NCBI GenBank assembly: GCA_027450145.1
Contig: DAIDKH010000025.1
Span: 1 to 53,781 of the forward strand
DNA: 53,781 nucleotides
Direction: 5' to 3'
Source: Chthonomonadaceae bacterium
GTDB lineage: Bacteria > Armatimonadota > Chthonomonadetes > Chthonomonadales > Chthonomonadaceae
The notes below the pieces were generated by a model. The model saw nothing but the letters and a program-made list of their open reading frames with translations, was not told where the DNA came from and ran no database searches. A program made the position numbers and the translations under genes. Positions within the stretch are counted from its first letter, which is position 1; every line of letters starts with the position of its first letter. Below, in pieces: positions 1,949-48,984 of this stretch.

Positions 1949-3412
1949 TTATGGTCTAACCTGAAATCCAACCAGCGGGATACCATGATGAAAAACGTTA
2001 TCACCGCCCAGCCAGAACCAGGTGCTATTATTTACCCTGAACATGGCCCTTAAGTCAAGACGTGCCTTGTGCGTATCGAATAGATCAGACGTCAAAATGG
2101 TGCTAGGATTGAGGTCCCAGTCGCCGCCAATACCGATGGTACCGGCATGAAATCCATAGCGCACGTCAAGGCTTTTGGTCAGCGCATGTTGAAGCTGCAG
2201 GTTCAGACGGTTTGTTTGGCCAACATCGTACAATCCGAGGTCCAGGCTATTAGTGTTGCTTAGGGCAACGTTGCCGTTAAGGTCGACTCTTAGGCGACCG
2301 GGGTCGAACTGCTGTGAAACATCGAGCGCACCAGTCACCTTCGGAGCCCGGACACCGCCAACGTGCTTCGCGCCGCCTTCCAGTTTATCTAACAATGAAT
2401 TAACCTTCGACATCGCGTTGGAAGCCTTGCCCGTTGCGTCCTTTAGGTTTATGATGGTGCTCTTAACGCCACTGGCTACAGCAGGGTCACCAGTGATCTG
2501 ATGCAGGTCGGATGTGATCTGACGCACACTTGCCAGTGTCGATCGCGCCAGCTCCAGCGTGTCTTGCAGAGACCTTTGCAACCGCGGATCGCTCACCTGC
2601 TGCGTTAGCTTCTTTACTACTTCCTGCGCATCATCAAGCGTGTTGCCCAGCTTTAACACGAGGTCGGTGGTCGCTGACGATAAGCGCGTAAGCTGGCCGC
2701 GGCCGTCTTTGACTAACCCGCTTAGCTGTCCGCTCAGACTTTTTGATGTGATGGCGGCTTGCTGTGAAACGATGAGAAAGTTTGCAATTGTCTTCTTAAG
2801 GTTTGCCTGAACTGTTGGGTCCCCCACTACAGACCGCGTCGATTTAAGCGTGCCGGTAGCGGTAACCACCATTTCATCGGTATGACCTAACAAGGTGTGC
2901 AACTGTGTGGTAAGCCCGTCAAGTTTACTCTGAAGGTTCTTCATGGATCCGTTGACGTTACCCAGTGTTTGTGAGAGCTGCGGGCTGAAAGAGGCAAGAG
3001 CATCCTCTGGGGCCTGGCCCTGCACGCTCGCGGAGCCATCCGTAGGCAGGGCTGCTACCTGCTCCGGATGCGCAGGAGGACTAATATTCACTTGCGCGGT
3101 ATTTATTAACAGTCCCGAGTTAATCGTCCACAGGTAGTCCGATGGGATCGTGTATTCACGGTGAATAGTAACGGTTACAACTGGACGAATTGGTATATGG
3201 CGCGTATCAAAACTAATGCTTTTTACTTCCCCCACCGCCACCCCTTGCATTCTCACCACCGATTGGGGAGCGAGCCCGTGGGTATTGTCGAAGGTGACTC
3301 GCACGGTATACGTATCCAAATTCGTGTGAGACAGGTAAAACAGCAGAGAAATCAGTAGTACCAGACTGACCAGAATAACAGCCCCAACTTTTGCTGCCGA
3401 TTTTACTTCCAT
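1949..3412 (-). CDS. mlaD: MCE-family lipid transport protein, MlaD type, with C-terminal beta-rich (barrel-like) region
   Basis: Substrate-binding component of an Mla-type phospholipid transporter. The 487 residues read in order as: an N-terminal membrane anchor (about 10-29); an MCE domain (about 36-115, with the family-typical stretch VVRMQGVAVGEVKSI); a long predicted alpha-helical region (about 145-350) rich in Ser/Thr/Leu/Gln heptads; and about 133 C-terminal residues made of some ten short alternating polar/hydrophobic strands (for example RLRVDLNGNVAL, NRLNLQLQHAL, KSLDVRYGFHAG, KARLDLRAMFRV). Escherichia coli MlaD is under 200 residues and lacks the last two regions. This layout matches the MlaD of Veillonella-type diderms, which is reported to span from inner to outer membrane and end in a beta-barrel. 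The gene starts 6 nt after mlaF. The MCE assignment is firm; the barrel is inferred from the strand pattern. Confidence 0.9.
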   Translation of the reverse strand: MEVKSAAKVGAVILVSLVLLISLLFYLSHTNLDTYTVRVTFDNTHGLAPQSVVRMQGVAVGEVKSISFDTRHIPIRPVVTVTIHREYTIPSDYLWTINSGLLINTAQVNISPPAHPEQVAALPTDGSASVQGQAPEDALASFSPQLSQTLGNVNGSMKNLQSKLDGLTTQLHTLLGHTDEMVVTATGTLKSTRSVVGDPTVQANLKKTIANFLIVSQQAAITSKSLSGQLSGLVKDGRGQLTRLSSATTDLVLKLGNTLDDAQEVVKKLTQQVSDPRLQRSLQDTLELARSTLASVRQITSDLHQITGDPAVASGVKSTIINLKDATGKASNAMSKVNSLLDKLEGGAKHVGGVRAPKVTGALDVSQQFDPGRLRVDLNGNVALSNTNSLDLGLYDVGQTNRLNLQLQHALTKSLDVRYGFHAGTIGIGGDWDLNPSTILTSDLFDTHKARLDLRAMFRVNNSTWFWLGGDNVFHHGIPLVGFQVRP

Positions 3413-3418
3413 AAGTGA

Positions 3419-4180
3419 CTATCTCGTTTCTGATGCTGCCAGATGCTCGTCATCGGCGTGCATAAACTCGCTCACAATCGGGTCGGTGGAGGTCATCATC
3501 TCATCGGGTGTCCCAATACAGTGGATGTCACCGTTGTAAAGAAGAGCTACCCGGTCGGATATACGCCTGACGGACGGAATATTATGCGATACCACTATTG
3601 AGGTTACACCAAAGCGCTTTCTGGTGTTTACGATGAGTGTATCGATTGCGAAGCAAGTTAGTGGATCCAATCCGCTGGTGGGCTCATCATAGAAAATAAG
3701 CGACGGCTGCATCGCCAACGCGCGGGCAAGCCCAACACGTTTTTGCTGCCCACCCGAAAGCTCGGCAGGATATCGATCCTGTAATCCCTCCAACTGTACC
3801 GCATCCAGCAACGTCGTCACAAGTTCATCCAGTTGCTTATGCGTCGTTTTTGGCCGATGCCGACGAACCGCAAAAACGATGTTCTCGTAAACCGTGAGCG
3901 AATCGAGAAGTGCAGCGTACTGAAATACCAGCCCCATCTTCAGACGAACGACATCCAGGCCGCGAGGAGTAAGCCGGCAAATGTCCTGTTCGTCAACACT
4001 TATCTGTCCAGACGTGGGGCAAACCAGGCCGGTCATCAGCTTGAGCAATGTCGTTTTGCCGCTACCCGATTGGCCCATAACCGATAATATCTCACCAGAT
4101 CGAACCTCTAGATTAATCTGGTTGAGGATTACCTTATCGTCCACCTCGTAGTGAACGTCCGTTAGCTTTATCCCGGTCAA
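3419..4180 (-). CDS. mlaF: ABC transporter ATP-binding protein, MlaF type
   Basis: ATPase of the MCE lipid transporter. Motifs present: Walker A GQSGSGKTT, signature LSGGQQKRVGLARAL, Walker B LIFYDEPTSGLDP and an H-loop in VVSHN. The frame stays open upstream to 4351, but that part lies inside mlaE and is not ABC-like. The start is therefore placed at TTG 4180, which overlaps the mlaE stop as TTGA and gives 253 residues, typical for MlaF. The 4-bp overlap suggests translational coupling with mlaE, and mlaD follows after 6 nt. The ABC family is certain and the Mla role follows from the neighbours. Confidence 0.93.
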   Translation of the reverse strand: MTGIKLTDVHYEVDDKVILNQINLEVRSGEILSVMGQSGSGKTTLLKLMTGLVCPTSGQISVDEQDICRLTPRGLDVVRLKMGLVFQYAALLDSLTVYENIVFAVRRHRPKTTHKQLDELVTTLLDAVQLEGLQDRYPAELSGGQQKRVGLARALAMQPSLIFYDEPTSGLDPLTCFAIDTLIVNTRKRFGVTSIVVSHNIPSVRRISDRVALLYNGDIHCIGTPDEMMTSTDPIVSEFMHADDEHLAASETR

Positions 4181-5016
4181 TGAGACCCGGCCGTATTGGT
4201 AAGCAGTAATGTGAGGAAGAAGTCTGAGATGAAAATCAGGACGACACAGAGTACTACCGATGAAATGGTGGCCTTGCCAACTCCGGCAGCCCCTCGCTCG
4301 GTGCGTAAGCCTTGGCGACACGCAGTTACTCCCACTATGAGGCCGAACCAAATCGCCTTACAGAGCCCGTTAGTTAGATCAGCGGCGTGAATGTAAACTC
4401 GAATGGAATTGACATATCCTGCGTGAGGGACACCGCTAAAACCTGAAACGTAATAGCCCACGACGACCCCAGCAATATCACCAAAGACAACCAGCACGGG
4501 AAGCATGAGAATGGTGGCCGCAAGTCGTGGCGCAACGAGGTAACGAACAGGCGACACTGCCATAGCCCGCAATGCATCAACCTGCTCTGTTACAACCATC
4601 GTGCCCAGCTCGGCGGCGATGGCGGATCCTACTCGTGATGCAAAAGCGACTCCGCCCAGTACGGGTCCAAGTTCATTCAGGAACGCATAGGCAACCCCGC
4701 TCCCAACAAACCCGCTGTAGCCAACCAGGTTGGATATATTGGAAATGTAGAACGCAAATACCGCACCGGTTGCGATAGATATGAGCAACACGATACCCAT
4801 AGAGTCAACTCCAAGTTGAGCCATCTGGGCTACGATGTCGGAAAACATTACTTCCCGCCGCGCAAGAGCCTTAAACGACTGCCACACGAGTACCCCGCAC
4901 TCGCCCACAAAAACAAATACTGGCCTCACGATTTTACGTAAAGTCAGGCCGCCTCGCGGTACTACCTGGCCTTCTGCAGGCGCGTTAGGAGTGGGATTCG
5001 CTACGGTATTTGCCAT
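4177..5016 (-). CDS. mlaE: ABC transporter permease, MlaE type
   Basis: Inner-membrane permease of the MCE lipid transporter. It has the MlaE-family core ELGPVLGGVAFASRVGSAI followed by AELGTM and EQVDALRAM, with several hydrophobic segments. The proposed start is the ATG at 5016 (MANTVANP), giving 279 residues. An in-frame ATG at 5049 also exists but has no ribosome-binding site. The 5016 ATG also lacks a Shine-Dalgarno sequence; instead a perfect TATAAT ends 7 nt before it, which suggests a leaderless or near-leaderless transcript. First gene of mlaE-mlaF-mlaD. No mlaA, mlaB or mlaC is nearby. Confidence 0.93.
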   Translation of the reverse strand: MANTVANPTPNAPAEGQVVPRGGLTLRKIVRPVFVFVGECGVLVWQSFKALARREVMFSDIVAQMAQLGVDSMGIVLLISIATGAVFAFYISNISNLVGYSGFVGSGVAYAFLNELGPVLGGVAFASRVGSAIAAELGTMVVTEQVDALRAMAVSPVRYLVAPRLAATILMLPVLVVFGDIAGVVVGYYVSGFSGVPHAGYVNSIRVYIHAADLTNGLCKAIWFGLIVGVTACRQGLRTERGAAGVGKATISSVVLCVVLIFISDFFLTLLLTNTAGSH

Positions 5017-5114: not shown

Positions 5115-8000
5115 TTAATCATCTAGCGCACCGGCAGCACTAAGCAAATCACCCGGAGAACAATCTTGTAGCGGTTCATAAAGCGCCTCTACGTTAGCTG
5201 CACTCATCCGTGTTAAAACCGAGTCCATTAGCTCCTTTGCCGCCACTGTATAACGTGAGAATTCCTGATCACTTAGGTTGAGTGCCGCCACCGAGAGCAC
5301 CGACGCTCCCATTATTCGGCCGCATTCAAGCATGTATTTTCCTGCAGTAACAAACACGTGGGCAAGGTGTGACGGTGTGGCCATCCCTCGTGACACCAGC
5401 ACCTCACTAAGGTGTTTAAGAATGGTGACGCCCTCTGTAATGCGACCGTCGGAAATGTGCAGCGATCCCTTTAAGAGCTCACAATTTGTTAGAATCCAGG
5501 CGTCGTCTAGCTCTTCCGATATCTGCACGGCATCTGCAAGAAACTCCTCGCACTTATCGCGTATACCGGCATCAAAATAAGCCGCCGCAAGATAGGCTGA
5601 CGTCAAGCCTATTTCATGCCTTGTTCCTAATCCCAAAAATATCTCAAGGCTCTCCTTCAGGGTCTCAATGGCGGCGACAAAGTCGTGGGTTGCTCGCTGC
5701 GTCTCGCCTAAATTCATCAGGGCGTCGGCGCATCCCCGCGCATTGCCCTGCGAACGGTGCAGAGCAACGCCTTGGGTATAGTACTCAGCAGCAGCCTTCC
5801 ACTGTGCCCGCTCGGCGCAAAGCACCCCCAAATTCCCCAGTGCAAATGCCTGATAGCGCATACTGCCTATTGACCGCGCAGTCTCTAATGCTGCCTGGTA
5901 CAAGTTCGTAGCATTCTCAAATTCGCCCTCCGCCCACGCAATATTTCCCAGGTTTAACCTAAGAGCTATCATCGAGTCCTTGTTATCGTCAGCTTCGCTT
6001 AGATCATATGCCTCCTGATAAAGTGCACGAGCAGCACCGATGTCGGCGCCTAGCCAAGCAACTCTACCCAGTTGCAAAAGCAGTTTAGCCAGGGACACAC
6101 GATCTTCAATGAGGCGGGCGGCCTGCTCTGAATACCTTAATCGTTGGTTGGCTTCTGCGTAGAAGCCAGATGTGATAAGGTGCCGCGCAAGAGCCAAGCC
6201 GTAATCCACAACCTCCTGATGAAGGCCGCGAGCGACTGCAAAATCCATTCCTGCGCGAAGATTTCCAAGCTCAATCGTGTAATTTAACGATGACTCAAGC
6301 TGACTAGCTCCAAATTCTTCTGTAGCCTTACTAAACTGCTGTGCGCGCAAAAGAAAGGCACGTGCATGGCGCGTGCAAACTATATCGCTATCCGTATGGT
6401 TTGCTAGGTGATCACCAGCGTATTGGCGCACACTCTCGAGCAGTCTATACCGACCGTCAGTAGATTTATCTCCAAAGATGACGAGGCTTTTGTCAACTAA
6501 CGAGGTAAGTAAATCGAGTATCTCCCAGTCTTCTAGTGGGTCACAGGCGCACACCTGCTCGCAGTCCTCCAAGCGCCATCCACCAACAAATACAGAAAGG
6601 CGTGCAAGGAGAACACGCTCCTGTTCGTTGAGCAAGTTATAGCTCCAATCCATCATCGCCTTTAACGTCTGCCTGCGGGGTAACGCCGTTCGACTACCGC
6701 TGGTTAGCAGGCGGAAACGATCATTAATGCGCTCCGCAAGCTGCTGAACAGGCATTGCCCGCACCCGCGCTGCTGCGAGTTCCAGCGCAAAGGGGATGCC
6801 ATCGAGCATGCGCACGAGGTGCCTCACGGCCTTTGCGTTCTCGGCGTCAAGTTCAAAATCCTGCCGCACTGCACGAACCCTGTCGACAAAGAGCTGAATG
6901 CTGGCGTATTGCAGTAGGTCAGAAGGTGTAACATGCTCCGCTTCATCCGGGACTGCCAGGGACGGCACGCGAAAGATACTTTCACCCGGAATACCCAGTG
7001 CCTCGCGGCTGCTAGCCAGAACTGTAACCTTGGGGCAGTTGCGAATAATCGCTTCGGTCGCTGCAGAACTATGGGAGATGAGGTGCTCGCAGTTGTCCAG
7101 AATTAGCAGTAGGGACTTCGACTTTAGCGATGTTATCAGTGTTTGCAGAATTGGGCGCTGCGGTTCTTCGCGAACGCCTACTACATCAGCGATGCTGTGG
7201 TAGACCGTTTCTCCGTCGGTCGCGGATGACAGGTCGACAAACCATACTCCGTCGGCATAGTTATCGGTGTTGTCCGCCGCAACCTGCATTGCCAGCCTGG
7301 TCTTGCCTACCCCTCCAGACCCAACCACGGTGACCAATCGCTGTTCTTTTAACAACTGTGCTAGCCGCAGAATTTCGAAATCCCTGCCAACAAAGGACGT
7401 CACTTGCTCGGGAAGGTTTGACAGCGCGACATCAAGCGAATTAAGACGCGGGAAATCGACAGCTAGGCCGGGGACAATAAGCTGCCAGACTTGCTCGGGG
7501 TGCTGAAGATCCTTTAAGCGATGAGAACCAAGGTCGCGTAGACTCCAGGTCGGCTCAGGAAGAGCGCTAATGAGCAGACGGGCCGCCTCAGAGAGTATGA
7601 CCTGGCCACCATGGGCGATAGACCTTAGGCGGGCACATCGATTGACTACTTGCCCATAAAAGTCGTTGTCACGGGCCTCTGCTTCACCGGCGTGGATCGC
7701 CATCCGCGACTTAATCTCAACCGGTGCCGGCCACTCCTCGGAAGCGAACTTCAACTGCAGCATGGCGGCGGCCCGTGCTGCATCAAAGGGAGCTTTGAAC
7801 ACAACGAATAGGCTGTCACCCTCGCCGCGGCTCTTAATCAGTCGCCCGCCACAAAAATCAATTACTTCCTGTGCAATAGCGTCGTGCCGTGCAAGAGCAG
7901 CCTGCATGCATTCTGGATGGGCTTCCCACTGTCGCGTACTACCTTCAACATCTGTCATTAGAAACGTGACAGTATGATTGCCGGAATCCACATTTGTCAT
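5115..8000 (-). CDS. class III nucleotidyl cyclase domain - STAND/AAA-like ATPase - TPR signalling protein
   Basis: Large cytoplasmic signalling protein of 961 residues. The N-terminal adenylate/guanylate cyclase homology domain (about 1-170) keeps both metal aspartates (D17 in MTDVEGST, D62 in GEGDS) and the VNRCARL stretch holding the catalytic Asn/Arg pair. It could therefore be active, though cyclic nucleotide specificity cannot be told from the sequence. A nucleotide-binding region follows, beginning LPEQVTSFVGRD, with Walker A GSGGVGKT and Walker B LLLILDNCEH, as in the regulatory ATPases related to AfsR/MalT. The C-terminal half is tetratricopeptide-like helices. No LuxR or OmpR-type DNA-binding domain is seen, unlike many relatives, so the output is either cyclic nucleotide or protein interaction. 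It stands alone between mla and the DUF2089 operon. Confidence 0.88.
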   Translation of the reverse strand: MTNVDSGNHTVTFLMTDVEGSTRQWEAHPECMQAALARHDAIAQEVIDFCGGRLIKSRGEGDSLFVVFKAPFDAARAAAMLQLKFASEEWPAPVEIKSRMAIHAGEAEARDNDFYGQVVNRCARLRSIAHGGQVILSEAARLLISALPEPTWSLRDLGSHRLKDLQHPEQVWQLIVPGLAVDFPRLNSLDVALSNLPEQVTSFVGRDFEILRLAQLLKEQRLVTVVGSGGVGKTRLAMQVAADNTDNYADGVWFVDLSSATDGETVYHSIADVVGVREEPQRPILQTLITSLKSKSLLLILDNCEHLISHSSAATEAIIRNCPKVTVLASSREALGIPGESIFRVPSLAVPDEAEHVTPSDLLQYASIQLFVDRVRAVRQDFELDAENAKAVRHLVRMLDGIPFALELAAARVRAMPVQQLAERINDRFRLLTSGSRTALPRRQTLKAMMDWSYNLLNEQERVLLARLSVFVGGWRLEDCEQVCACDPLEDWEILDLLTSLVDKSLVIFGDKSTDGRYRLLESVRQYAGDHLANHTDSDIVCTRHARAFLLRAQQFSKATEEFGASQLESSLNYTIELGNLRAGMDFAVARGLHQEVVDYGLALARHLITSGFYAEANQRLRYSEQAARLIEDRVSLAKLLLQLGRVAWLGADIGAARALYQEAYDLSEADDNKDSMIALRLNLGNIAWAEGEFENATNLYQAALETARSIGSMRYQAFALGNLGVLCAERAQWKAAAEYYTQGVALHRSQGNARGCADALMNLGETQRATHDFVAAIETLKESLEIFLGLGTRHEIGLTSAYLAAAYFDAGIRDKCEEFLADAVQISEELDDAWILTNCELLKGSLHISDGRITEGVTILKHLSEVLVSRGMATPSHLAHVFVTAGKYMLECGRIMGASVLSVAALNLSDQEFSRYTVAAKELMDSVLTRMSAANVEALYEPLQDCSPGDLLSAAGALDD

Positions 8001-8129: not shown

Positions 8130-8708
8130 CTAACCAGCAGAAACCTTCTGCAGTTCCGCAACAAACATTAGATCAACCTCGTCTAGCAGGCGTTCCGCCC
8201 AGTCGGCTGTCAACCTGCCGTTCTGTATCATATCCAATATTCTACGCCTTGCGGCCCTTCGTTTCGCCTCCACGGCCTCCGCTGCGGAGGCGGCGCTATT
8301 TTCGATACCGCTGCCTCCCATCTTGCCTTTTACTGCGGCTTTTAGCTCATCGGTCTTGTTGGCCAAAAGAGCCTTGAAGCCCTGTAGCGTTTCACGCGAC
8401 GCAGTCCGGGCAGATTCCTTCATGTACACACCCACAATTTTCACAATTGCAGGTGCCAGACTGTCCGGCACCTGCATCGCATAGTGCGACCCATCCGGCC
8501 GCACTATGTCCACTACGGGCGCGGACTTTCGCTCAGGCTCGGCCTTGTCACTTGTGGAAGCATGCCCCGATGTTGTCGACGACGCTGCGCCGCCCTGCGC
8601 TTCATTGACCTCGGAGATAGCACTAAGAAGCCGTGCTGCCTCATCTGGTCTTATCGATCCATCTGCAACCATTTGCAGGATCGCCTGCCGCTCTGTCGAT
8701 GCACTCAT
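8130..8708 (-). CDS. SHOCT-like two-motif protein, last gene of the DUF2089 operon
   Basis: Protein of 192 residues without a close named family that I recognise. It carries two copies of a short helical motif resembling SHOCT-like domains: RQAILQMVADGSIRPDEAAR near the N-terminus and RRRILDMIQNGRLTADWAER near the C-terminus. A charged low-complexity linker and an amphipathic middle separate them. No signal peptide or membrane helix is seen. The start is the ATG at 8708, which overlaps the TGA of the DUF4097 gene (ATGA) and has GGAG about 10 nt upstream; an in-frame earlier start inside the previous gene is less likely. The same motif in both upstream genes suggests the three proteins act together, perhaps by shared oligomerisation. 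Confidence 0.75.
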   Translation of the reverse strand: MSASTERQAILQMVADGSIRPDEAARLLSAISEVNEAQGGAASSTTSGHASTSDKAEPERKSAPVVDIVRPDGSHYAMQVPDSLAPAIVKIVGVYMKESARTASRETLQGFKALLANKTDELKAAVKGKMGGSGIENSAASAAEAVEAKRRAARRRILDMIQNGRLTADWAERLLDEVDLMFVAELQKVSAG

Positions 8709-10108
8709 AGCAGGGACTCCACGGGACATTTGGTGATGCTGATGTCACCGCTTATAGTCTGGATGTTTAGCGTGCCGGTACCGTCACCCAACTGCCCCGA
8801 CCACAGAGTTTCACTGGATACAACTTCGGAAGCCTCATGTTCACATTTGAGGTCGCCTTGCGATGTAGAGAGTGCCGCCCGAACGCTGCTGCCGACGGGC
8901 ATAGCCAACCCGACATCTCCGCTCACCGTAGAAACGTGCACGGCACCGGTAAACGGCTGGCGTAGGCCAAGCTTAATATCACCGCTAACAGTTTGGGCGC
9001 GCACGCTAGAGGAATTAAGCAGGTTACCATTGAGGTCTCCGGAAACTGCCTTCAACGAAAGCGGACCATTCGCCCGACTGATATTCGCATCCCCACTGAT
9101 CGATTCACATAGTATCTCTACAGGAGCGTCAATTCCTACGTCGTGAACGGATACGTCACCAGACACAGACTTCGCTTCCAGCTTACCATTTTCCACGCCC
9201 ACTACGTTTATATCGCCGCTGGCCGAGTGGGCAACCAGCCCCTTTTTAAGTCGGGCAGTCGTAATGTTTCCACTGGTAGTGACAACATTGGCCTCTCCGG
9301 AAACTTCTTGCAGATCGACCGCGCCAGACGCTGTTTCAGCCCTGCAGTCACCATCGATATTCGATGCGGATACGGAGCCCGAAGCGGTATGCACTTCAAC
9401 ACTTGCCGCGAGTCCCGTTACAGATACGGTGCCAAACCGCGTTCTAACGTGCAATGACCTAAGGTTGCGCGGTACCCGCAACTCCATGTCCACAGTACCC
9501 TCCTTGAAGCTATCGGGCGCTGCGGCCTTAATGTCGAGCCTTACATCTGTGCCGTGAATCGTCACTTCCATCTGCGACGCTGCTGCGACTGCATCTTCCT
9601 GTTTCGCGGCCCACCCTGTTTTTCGCACCACTACACATGCATATCCTGCATCCGCAGGTGTTATCAGAACATTTCCGAGCGGGTTTTCAATTGAGACCTC
9701 TGCGCCGTCTTCCAGGTGGAACTCATGTTCATGTGACTCTTCATGTTCCGGAAGGTGGCCAGGATTTGATGGCCGTGCCTCGCCCCAATCTGCCCACGTT
9801 TTAATGCGGGTCGAAAATGAGCTCGACCACTGGGCTCCCGCCTTACTTGCAGATTTAAATTGCTCCTGCAGCTTTTGCACGATCTTCTCGGGTTGAAGTT
9901 TAGCGACCGATTTTGAGATTGTGTCACCCAGATTATCCAGGTCAATTCTAAATTCTGCCTTCTTTTTTGGCTCTGGTTTTGGTGCCGCGGGCGCCTCAGG
10001 AGGCGCCGGGGAGCTACCGCGCATTGAAGCGATCAGCTTCTCCGCTTCTTGGGCGCTAATTTTGCCTTCTTGAAGCATCTGAAGAACCGTCATTACATTG
10101 TCGTCCAT
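8705..10108 (-). CDS. DUF4097 family beta-strand repeat protein with N-terminal SHOCT-like motif
   Basis: 467 residues from the ATG at 10108, chosen because AAGGAG stands 7 nt upstream; the frame is open a further 12 codons without a binding site. The N-terminus (MDDNVMTVLQMLQEGKISAQ) is the short helical motif shared with its neighbours. After a Pro/Lys-rich linker, residues from about 130 to the end form a ladder of short beta strands with the repeated pattern xxxSGDxxx, about ten turns, typical of DUF4097/YvlB-type proteins. No secretion signal is visible. Relatives in Bacillota sit in envelope-stress operons, but a role here is only an inference. Middle gene of an overlapping operon. Confidence 0.85.
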   Translation of the reverse strand: MDDNVMTVLQMLQEGKISAQEAEKLIASMRGSSPAPPEAPAAPKPEPKKKAEFRIDLDNLGDTISKSVAKLQPEKIVQKLQEQFKSASKAGAQWSSSFSTRIKTWADWGEARPSNPGHLPEHEESHEHEFHLEDGAEVSIENPLGNVLITPADAGYACVVVRKTGWAAKQEDAVAAASQMEVTIHGTDVRLDIKAAAPDSFKEGTVDMELRVPRNLRSLHVRTRFGTVSVTGLAASVEVHTASGSVSASNIDGDCRAETASGAVDLQEVSGEANVVTTSGNITTARLKKGLVAHSASGDINVVGVENGKLEAKSVSGDVSVHDVGIDAPVEILCESISGDANISRANGPLSLKAVSGDLNGNLLNSSSVRAQTVSGDIKLGLRQPFTGAVHVSTVSGDVGLAMPVGSSVRAALSTSQGDLKCEHEASEVVSSETLWSGQLGDGTGTLNIQTISGDISITKCPVESLL

Positions 10109-10149
10109 GTACAACTCCTTCCGGCACGTTTGACGCCGGCGCACCAGAG

Positions 10150-41131: not shown

Positions 41132-41947
41132 ATGAAGCTGAATTTTGGCACCTACAAATACCCCAAAAGGAACAATCCTCGATTGAAATCTTTCTCCGGA
41201 TATCGTTGTCTTTGTATGGCAGCAATAAGTGCAGCCGTACTAACGCTGACCGCATGGTCCCCTGCAGTTGCTGGACCACCTTTCACCACGGATAATCCAC
41301 AGCCTGTGCCTACCGGTAAATGGCAGATTTTCGTAGTCGGTTCGGTGAATTCAGGACACGGCAGTTACGTTGCCCAGGTACCCTACGTTGAGGCGGATTA
41401 TGGCAGCAGTAGGAATGTGCAGTACCACCTCTCCATGCCGTTTATCTACAACTCGCCGCGTTCTGGTCATTCATACTTTGGCCCCGGCGACTTCGATTTC
41501 GCATTGAAGTACAGATTTGTACAGGAGGACGCCAAAACGCCCATGGTGGGCATCTACCCACATATCAACATCCCCACGGGTAACTACACCGAGGGCCTGG
41601 GCGCGGGCCATATCCAGCTATTTCTTCCGGTGTGGCTACAAAAATCGGAGGGGACTTGGAAATTCAATGCGGGCGGTGGCTACTTCTTAAACCCCGGCGA
41701 GAAAAACCGCGATTATTGGGTTTTTGGCGGCCTTGCCCAACATGATCTCAATCATCATCTCACCCTGGGTGGCGAGGTATTCTACAACTCTGCCACGAAG
41801 GTGGGCGCAAAGGAGCAAGTCGATTTTCGTGTAGCATTGGATTACCACAGGGATCCCAACCACCACGTATTCATTGCACTGGGTCGAAGCATTATTGGCG
41901 ACAATGATCTTCTTGCGACAGCAGGAGTAATGTGGTATACCCACTAG
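41132..41947 (+). CDS. outer-membrane beta-barrel protein, Phenol_MetA_deg-like
   Basis: 271 residues. An extended N-terminus with a signal peptide (AAISAAVLTLTAWSPAVAG) is followed by alternating strands characteristic of the MetA-pathway/transporter barrel family: PPFTTDNPQPVPTGKWQIF, FGPGDFDFALKYRF and a C-terminal strand ATAGVMWYTH. AAGG lies about 8 nt before the ATG. Substrate unknown. A hairpin follows the stop. It lies next to the c-di-GMP cluster but is transcribed away from it. Confidence 0.8.
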   Translation: MKLNFGTYKYPKRNNPRLKSFSGYRCLCMAAISAAVLTLTAWSPAVAGPPFTTDNPQPVPTGKWQIFVVGSVNSGHGSYVAQVPYVEADYGSSRNVQYHLSMPFIYNSPRSGHSYFGPGDFDFALKYRFVQEDAKTPMVGIYPHINIPTGNYTEGLGAGHIQLFLPVWLQKSEGTWKFNAGGGYFLNPGEKNRDYWVFGGLAQHDLNHHLTLGGEVFYNSATKVGAKEQVDFRVALDYHRDPNHHVFIALGRSIIGDNDLLATAGVMWYTH

Positions 41948-46995: not shown

Positions 46996-48984
46996 ATGTC
47001 TGTTCCAAATTTGCCGGCGGATGATGAGGGCAAATCGCCTAACCGTCCAGGAGCAACTTGGATTAGTTGGCGTGTCATGATTCTGGCCTTTCTAATTGCG
47101 CCACTCACGGCATACTGGACGAGCGATCAGGTGGTAGACGTCATCTTCTCGTTGATGATTCCACCTGTAGTGATGACCTTTCTTGTAGTTCTCGCAAACC
47201 TCGTAATACGACGGTATGCACCAAAATATGCGCTGAGAGAAGAAGAACTCGTCATCTTCTACGGTATGCAAACTGTCATAGGGGCAATTGGAGCCGAGTG
47301 GATGAACACCATCAATCCACAGATATACTCCTATGCTCTTTACGGCGCAAACAACACAACCTATACGAATAAAATGCTTCCTTATCTTAGCAAATGGCTC
47401 GTTATACCGATGAAAGACGCGCCTAAGTTTAAGGATTTTAAGATTGGCGGCTTCGGCCTGGATTATACGCTCACCCATTTGCACCTGTGGGGCCGATACA
47501 TTATCGGCTGGACGGTGATCGTCACAATTATATGCTTCGCAATGCTGTGCATTAACAGCCTCATGCGCGATGAATGGACTTCGCGTGAAAAGTTATCGTT
47601 TCCCATTATTCAGCTTCCCATGGCCCTCGTACAGGCAGGCTCTGGAAAGCTTCCATTGTGGCGCAACAAATACTTTGTGGGTGCATTCATTGTAATGTTC
47701 GCCATTGATATGGTGAATGGGTTTCACTACCTTTATCCCAGTATTCCGCTAATTCAGGTCAGGTTCTTGGGGGATCTGTCCACATACTTTCCTAATCCGC
47801 CGTTTAACGCGATTGGTTGGACCCCCATTGGCATCTTCCCTTACATGGCGGTTATCGGCTTTTTTATGCCGACCGATCTGCTCTTTTCGTGCATCTTCTT
47901 CTTCTTCTTCCGCAAGATTGAACAGGTTGCTACCTATTCAATGGGCTTCACCGACAGCGCAGGGGTATTCGGCGGTGGCGGACTGGTGCCCAGTGCTCCC
48001 TACTTTAGTGAGCAATCTTGGGGCGCATTCATTGCCCTCTTTGTCTCGGCTGCCTATGTAGCCCGCGGATACCTTAAGGAGGTATGGGACCAGATACTGC
48101 ACGGGCACCCTGAGGGCGACACCGGCGTTCCACATCGGGTTGCATTCATTGGCTTGGTCTTTAGCATGATCCTGTTTTGTGTTGTTTCAACCGCACTTCG
48201 AGTGCCGCTTTGGATTACTGTCGTAAGCATGGTGCTGTTCCTTATATTCTCGACGGCACTTACCAGATTGCGGGCGCAAATTGGCGCGCCGTCCCATGAG
48301 ATGGCGTTTATGGGTCCGAACCAGATGATAGTCGACTTCGCAGGAACACAAAACCTTAGCCAATCTGCTGTACCACGAATGGTGAGCACATTCTTCTTTA
48401 TGAACAGGATCCATCGCACAGATCCAATGCCCCACCAATTAGAAGCAATGAAGATGGGTGAAACTGCACGTATAAACCAAAAGGCGCTATTTTTTGCCAT
48501 TTTGCTTGCCACAATTGCAGGGAGTTTTCTTGGCCACTTCATGCACATTCTGCAAGGATATCACTATGGGGCCGGTGACGGCGGGGGAGACATGTCTGGC
48601 GTGGTGGACACCCTCACGAGTAGACATCAACCACCGAACATTACGGCAATTTTATTCGTCGTAGTGGGTTTTGCTGTAGTCATGCTACTCGATACCATTC
48701 GATTCCAGGCACCGGGGTTCCCGCTGCATCCCATGGGCTTCGCGCTTGCCATGAACTTCGGTCTGGATTACTTCTGGTTTGGCCTGCTGATCGTATATAT
48801 CATCAAGCTTCTCGTTGAACGGTACCAGGGACTAAAGGGGCACCACATGCTGCACCAAGTAGCGCTCGGTATCATCCTCGCAGAATATTCTGCAGAGGCC
48901 ATTTGGGCTCTATACTCCATGACGCACCATAACATGCCAACCTATAGTATTTCCATTAATGGTAGGTTGGGCTGGAACCAGTAA
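46996..48984 (+). CDS. DUF6785/DUF6784-type polytopic membrane protein
   Basis: 662 residues with about 14 hydrophobic segments. The sequence resembles the large DUF6785 membrane family, distantly like oligopeptide transporters, found in Armatimonadota and Planctomycetota. Visible features are ALREEELVIFYGMQTVIGAIG near the start, SFPIIQLPMALVQAGSG, PTDLLFSCIFFFFFRKIEQV and a C-terminal GLKGHHMLHQVALGIILAEY. Family members often neighbour glycan-related genes; here the gene stands alone between terminators. Substrate unknown. Family assignment is from memory of its motifs. Confidence 0.7.
   Translation: MSVPNLPADDEGKSPNRPGATWISWRVMILAFLIAPLTAYWTSDQVVDVIFSLMIPPVVMTFLVVLANLVIRRYAPKYALREEELVIFYGMQTVIGAIGAEWMNTINPQIYSYALYGANNTTYTNKMLPYLSKWLVIPMKDAPKFKDFKIGGFGLDYTLTHLHLWGRYIIGWTVIVTIICFAMLCINSLMRDEWTSREKLSFPIIQLPMALVQAGSGKLPLWRNKYFVGAFIVMFAIDMVNGFHYLYPSIPLIQVRFLGDLSTYFPNPPFNAIGWTPIGIFPYMAVIGFFMPTDLLFSCIFFFFFRKIEQVATYSMGFTDSAGVFGGGGLVPSAPYFSEQSWGAFIALFVSAAYVARGYLKEVWDQILHGHPEGDTGVPHRVAFIGLVFSMILFCVVSTALRVPLWITVVSMVLFLIFSTALTRLRAQIGAPSHEMAFMGPNQMIVDFAGTQNLSQSAVPRMVSTFFFMNRIHRTDPMPHQLEAMKMGETARINQKALFFAILLATIAGSFLGHFMHILQGYHYGAGDGGGDMSGVVDTLTSRHQPPNITAILFVVVGFAVVMLLDTIRFQAPGFPLHPMGFALAMNFGLDYFWFGLLIVYIIKLLVERYQGLKGHHMLHQVALGIILAEYSAEAIWALYSMTHHNMPTYSISINGRLGWNQ

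Follow-up and report, generated by a model that had tools for sequence, protein, structure and literature searches.

The mlaEFD operon of this armatimonad probably encodes a minimal lipid-transport system of the kind described in Veillonella, in which MlaD would form a tube whose C-terminal beta-barrels are inserted in the outer membrane as anchors, with lipid entering or leaving at the mouth of the tube.

Examination of positions 5016-1949 (minus strand) of the window, i.e., the whole 53,781-nucleotide stretch of DNA that was analysed, revealed mlaE, mlaF and mlaD to be three tightly packed genes forming one operon (Table 1). The coordinates and lengths given in a preliminary description of this DNA, including an MlaD of 487 residues, were thus correct. 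The reading of mlaE runs from an ATG at position 5016. For mlaF, the open reading frame as listed comprises 310 residues and extends back into mlaE; a candidate TTG start that overlaps the mlaE stop can be read from the sequence, and the gene ends directly upstream of mlaD. The match of the mlaF product to the NCBIfam MlaF model (3.8e-53) fell under the cut-off of that model, as did the match of MlaD to the NCBIfam MlaD model, both as expected of a distant member of these families.

Table 1. Features of the mlaEFD operon and of the MlaD protein (positions in the window)
Feature	Length or residues	Position	Strand	Evidence
mlaE, permease	279 aa	4177..5016	-	Pfam MlaE, 2.5e-64
mlaF, ABC ATPase	253 aa if TTG start	3419..4180	-	Pfam ABC_tran, 7.7e-34
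mlaD, long form	487 aa	1949..3412	-	Pfam MlaD, 1.8e-15, residues 34-113
MlaD, hydrophobic inner-membrane anchor	residues 8-29	3326..3391	-	Sequence; NCBIfam MlaD match starts at residue 8
MlaD, MCE domain core	residues 34-113	3074..3313	-	Pfam; family profile against solved structures
MlaD, amphipathic helical spacer	residues 130-345 (~215)	2378..3025	-	Helical period; near-constant length
MlaD, C-terminal domain, ten predicted antiparallel strands, probable outer-membrane beta-barrel	residues 358-487	1952..2341	-	Alignment, periodicity, AlphaFold, coevolution, conservation

The flanks of the operon hold no mlaA, mlaB or mlaC, as had been noted earlier, and no MlaB was seen within the operon itself. 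Downstream, mlaD is followed by rplI, and the order mlaE-mlaF-mlaD-rplI is kept in a relative of the same family whose 3.44 Mb genome is contained in one contig (locus L058). Directly upstream of mlaE, on the same strand, lies a large regulator (5115-8000) that combines a nucleotide-cyclase-like domain, a STAND/NB-ARC-type ATPase and TPR repeats. Elsewhere in the window, two overlapping genes at 8130-10144 (minus strand) share SHOCT-like DUF2089-C domains, one of them also carrying a DUF4097 'toastrack' domain; a gene at 41132-41947 (plus strand) gives a weak match to Phenol_MetA_deg, a family of the outer-membrane channel type, and probably encodes another outer-membrane barrel; and a membrane protein encoded at 46996-48984 (plus strand) consists of DUF6785 and DUF6784, strong matches to families of unknown function.

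The layout of MlaD proposed earlier, namely an anchor, an MCE domain, a helical stretch and a series of short strands, was borne out, with about 215 helical and about 130 strand residues. The MlaD family profile matches solved MlaD and Mce structures over the MCE domain. When the family-averaged hydropathy profile was considered, residues 130-345 presented a helical-period signal (peak at 104 degrees, equalled in 0 of 2000 shuffles) and residues 358-487 a beta-period signal (peak at 174 degrees, p = 0.0075), such that the layout goes beyond what chance would give. The length of the spacer is nearly constant across relatives: among 136 of these, the interquartile range of the distance from the end of the MCE domain to the second strand is 242-256 residues, and the present MlaD has 259. 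By simple arithmetic rather than from a model, 190-odd residues placed as end-to-end helices at 1.5 Å each would reach roughly 29 nm, sufficient for the periplasm. The spacer is also divided by DP breaks at residues 198, 275 and 309, each followed by similar sequence (DPxxxxxLxxT), hinting that it may be built of repeated helical units.

Alignment of relatives showed the C-terminal domain to comprise ten strand-like blocks separated by short turns. Of the 8-10 strands suggested previously, ten are therefore favoured by both these blocks and the two AlphaFold runs described below. Because a soluble lipid-binding barrel would give the same alternation along its strands, conservation was examined in 147 MlaD sequences. 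The strands alternate sharply, with the hydrophobic face being 74% hydrophobic and 7% charged across these relatives; as the faces were assigned from hydropathy, this contrast is partly by construction, while the conservation pattern is not. Twelve of the 17 C-terminal domain positions that are at least 80% conserved are found on the polar face, where the conserved residues are R, D, Q and G and include R375, D377, Q406, R418, D431 and D443. The hydrophobic face, by contrast, exchanges L, I, V, F and A among relatives. In the same proteins, the conserved columns of the MCE domain and of the helices are the hydrophobic ones, and the Spearman correlation between conservation and hydropathy, which is +0.60 in the MCE domain and +0.38 in the helices, drops to -0.10 in the C-terminal domain. 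Since the two faces of the C-terminal domain do not differ significantly in overall entropy (p = 0.16), the argument from the faces rests on this loss of correlation and on the list of conserved positions. A conserved polar face together with an interchangeable hydrophobic one matches what is predicted for a membrane barrel whose interior is packed with polar side chains. As such, the C-terminal domain appears, by its sequence pattern, to be of the outer-membrane type, with a membrane beta-barrel being favoured over a soluble lipid-binding domain.

The pairing of the strands was addressed by a pseudolikelihood coevolution analysis with an effective 125 sequences. All nine pairs of neighbouring strands ranked within the top 14 of 45 antiparallel scores, with a mean of 2.5 as compared to 1.4 for the other pairs (p = 5e-5). 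In the parallel control, the same neighbouring pairs were likewise above background, so that the hairpin signal in part reflects proximity along the chain. No coevolution signal was obtained for the pair that would close a barrel, strands 1 and 10 (score 0.6). Coevolution thus supports an up-and-down antiparallel sheet, and lends no such support to closure of the barrel.

Both AlphaFold runs on the C-terminal domain drew on three near-identical sequences and returned models of low confidence (mean pLDDT of 51.6 for the first and 38.7 for the second). The models agree on ten strands at largely matching positions but differ in fold. The best 50 matches listed by VIA-align for the first model are all membrane barrels, headed by KdgM (Z 13.3; 129 residues; 2.3 Å), while Foldseek returned no match to this model with an E-value below 0.001. 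The second, poorer model resembles soluble beta-sandwiches, again with no significant match. Given the three near-identical sequences behind them, these models cannot decide the fold, and the case for a barrel is not rested on either. When solved structures were searched with a profile of the C-terminal domain, no match was obtained up to E = 10, hence no solved outer-membrane protein, and the Pfam matches of C-terminal domains to barrel families were weak. Unlike the signal common in proteobacterial outer-membrane proteins, the last residue of the domain is not aromatic. Kinship with the C-terminus of TamB was also considered, given weak Pfam TamB matches in six of 46 C-terminal domains; the idea was dropped when a profile comparison with the TamB end encoded by this genome gave nothing. 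A search for MlaD relatives in viral contigs found none.

The genome, a draft of 168 contigs that is 96.65% complete, contains a single MCE gene (mlaD) and a single MlaE gene. The genome search for mlaA and mlaC that had been proposed earlier detected neither: the best MlaA candidate scored 11.8 bits, the cut-off being 25, and no MlaC or LolA was found, with E. coli and Caulobacter controls being positive in all three cases. At the same time, Omp85/BamA with POTRA domains, TamB and LpxC are all encoded, which marks the organism as a diderm with lipid A genes and no known Mla shuttle. The gene of the TamB-like protein (1668 aa) and the only Omp85/BamA gene of the genome lie near each other on contig C42 (locus L059, 10052-15058 and 6939-9041), with a sigma-factor-like gene between the two.

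To consider distribution, 291 genomes of the phylum (Armatimonadota) were searched. MlaD was matched in 270, with full-length relatives being found throughout, and the C-terminal domain in 271, while MlaA was detected in only one. That genome (G121) holds two copies of MlaA (on contigs C39 and C9), one of which is at a contig end, and shows 4% contamination; contamination or transfer possibly accounts for these copies. What is new here is accordingly breadth within the phylum, namely that the C-terminal domain is near-universal, MlaA is missing and the spacer is nearly constant in length.

The closest known parallel is the system of Veillonella parvula, with which the present one shares an mlaEFD operon and the lack of MlaA, MlaC and a Lol system. 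V. parvula MlaD, of 419 residues, is laid out in the same way and is predicted to have a ten-stranded barrel, and the barrel part of that protein fractionates with the outer membrane (Grasekamp et al., 2023; PMC10665443). Here, the two proteins were likened by layout, i.e., anchor, MCE domain, long helices and C-terminal ten-stranded domain. They differ in that the present MlaD is longer (487 residues), with about 215 helical residues as opposed to about 150 in V. parvula, and in that mlaD is followed by rplI rather than by tolC and tamB. The operon, anchor, MCE domain, helical region and absence of MlaA and MlaC bear out the Veillonella-type layout proposed in the preliminary description. The accompanying suggestion of an ancestral system is not novel, since an ancestral elongated, barrel-tipped MlaD within MlaEFD, widespread in diderm Terrabacteria, is the main conclusion of the Veillonella study. 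That survey took in all current bacterial phyla, with armatimonads not being named in its main text, and only about 10% of the MlaD sequences were predicted to contain a complete barrel (PMC10665443); given this low share, near-universality in one phylum is a useful addition. No literature joining MlaD with armatimonads in substance was found.

Other MCE systems are more distant. The E. coli Mla system (MlaFEDB, MlaC and MlaA) shares MlaE, MlaF and the MCE domain with the present one, whereas here MlaA and MlaC were not found, MlaB is not in the operon and MlaD is far longer. In mycobacterial Mce1 (PDB 8fed), an MCE domain is likewise followed by a long helical part, and the MlaD family profile matches 8fed chains over the MCE domain and part of the helices; Mce1, however, is built of six different Mce proteins rather than one and has no ten-stranded domain on each chain. 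LetB/YebT and PqiB are also periplasm-spanning MCE transport proteins, yet employ stacked MCE rings (with a coiled part in PqiB) in place of one MCE ring and long helices.

In the mechanism proposed, MlaE and MlaF, by family match, are the inner-membrane ABC engine. MlaD would be anchored beside MlaE, with the MCE domains presumably forming a hexameric ring, as in solved relatives. The helices, whose helicity and length are apparent from the family, would cross the periplasm as a tube or bundle whose length hardly varies, at the far end of which the ten-stranded domains would enter the outer membrane. There, the barrels most likely tie the tube to the membrane, their interiors packed with conserved polar side chains, with phospholipid entering or leaving at the mouth of the tube and not through individual barrels. 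By analogy to Veillonella, glycerophospholipid is the most likely cargo, and transport is probably retrograde. MCE proteins work as hexamers. As MlaE permease and MlaF ATPase are present as well, the earlier notion of a one-component conduit does not stand, a single MlaD chain being at most one stave. That the inward face is charged and conserved argues for each barrel acting as an anchor rather than as a lipid channel, and the narrowness of the Veillonella barrel (PMC10665443) points the same way. An extension of this reading, offered tentatively and on balance doubtful, is that a plugged barrel with a conserved R/D/Q interior is a pure anchor across the phylum, with lipid moving between barrels at the mouth, and that MlaD, given its near-constant spacer, is a fixed-length tether that could help to set the width of the periplasm in addition to moving lipid.

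Other readings of the C-terminal domain were weighed against insertion of one barrel per chain. The domain could instead be a soluble ten-stranded lipid-binding barrel of the fatty-acid-binding-protein kind, acting as a periplasmic cap that hands lipid to an outer-membrane protein. Some 130 residues and ten alternating strands would suit that fold equally well, Foldseek places a CrabP2 chain 33rd among its matches to the first AlphaFold model, the second model is like soluble beta proteins, and a closed barrel in the membrane is itself a proposal. Such a protein would, however, be predicted to have a conserved hydrophobic core and a variable polar surface, as does the MCE domain of the very same chains, while here it is the polar face that carries most of the strongly conserved positions, residues on the hydrophobic face being interchangeable and seldom charged. 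With the best 50 matches listed for the better model all being membrane barrels, a soluble cap is considered unlikely. Much the same standing is given to the idea that six MlaD chains pool their strands to build one or three larger barrels around a wider lipid pore, resembling TolC or the small Mce1 barrel. The authors of the Veillonella study raised a fused, TolC-like arrangement, a single barrel being too narrow for lipid (PMC10665443), and the lack of coevolution between strands 1 and 10 would be expected were the edges of the sheet free. Yet strand 1 belongs to the most variable strands, making the missing signal weak evidence, ten strands suffice for one closed barrel per chain and the conserved, charged inward face would end up lining the pore. 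Finally, the draft state of the genome prompted consideration of a classical six-component Mla system with MlaA and MlaC encoded elsewhere. With both proteins being undetected in this genome and MlaA lacking from 290 of the 291 phylum genomes, many of which are close to complete, this is extremely improbable.

Should the C-terminal domain indeed be an outer-membrane barrel, nearly the whole phylum would use a three-protein lipid bridge with no MlaA/MlaC shuttle, which would back the published view of the E. coli system as the exception. A large and diverse family is, moreover, available for testing whether lipid passes through the barrel or the barrel simply serves to anchor, with the conserved interior residues offering direct targets for mutation.
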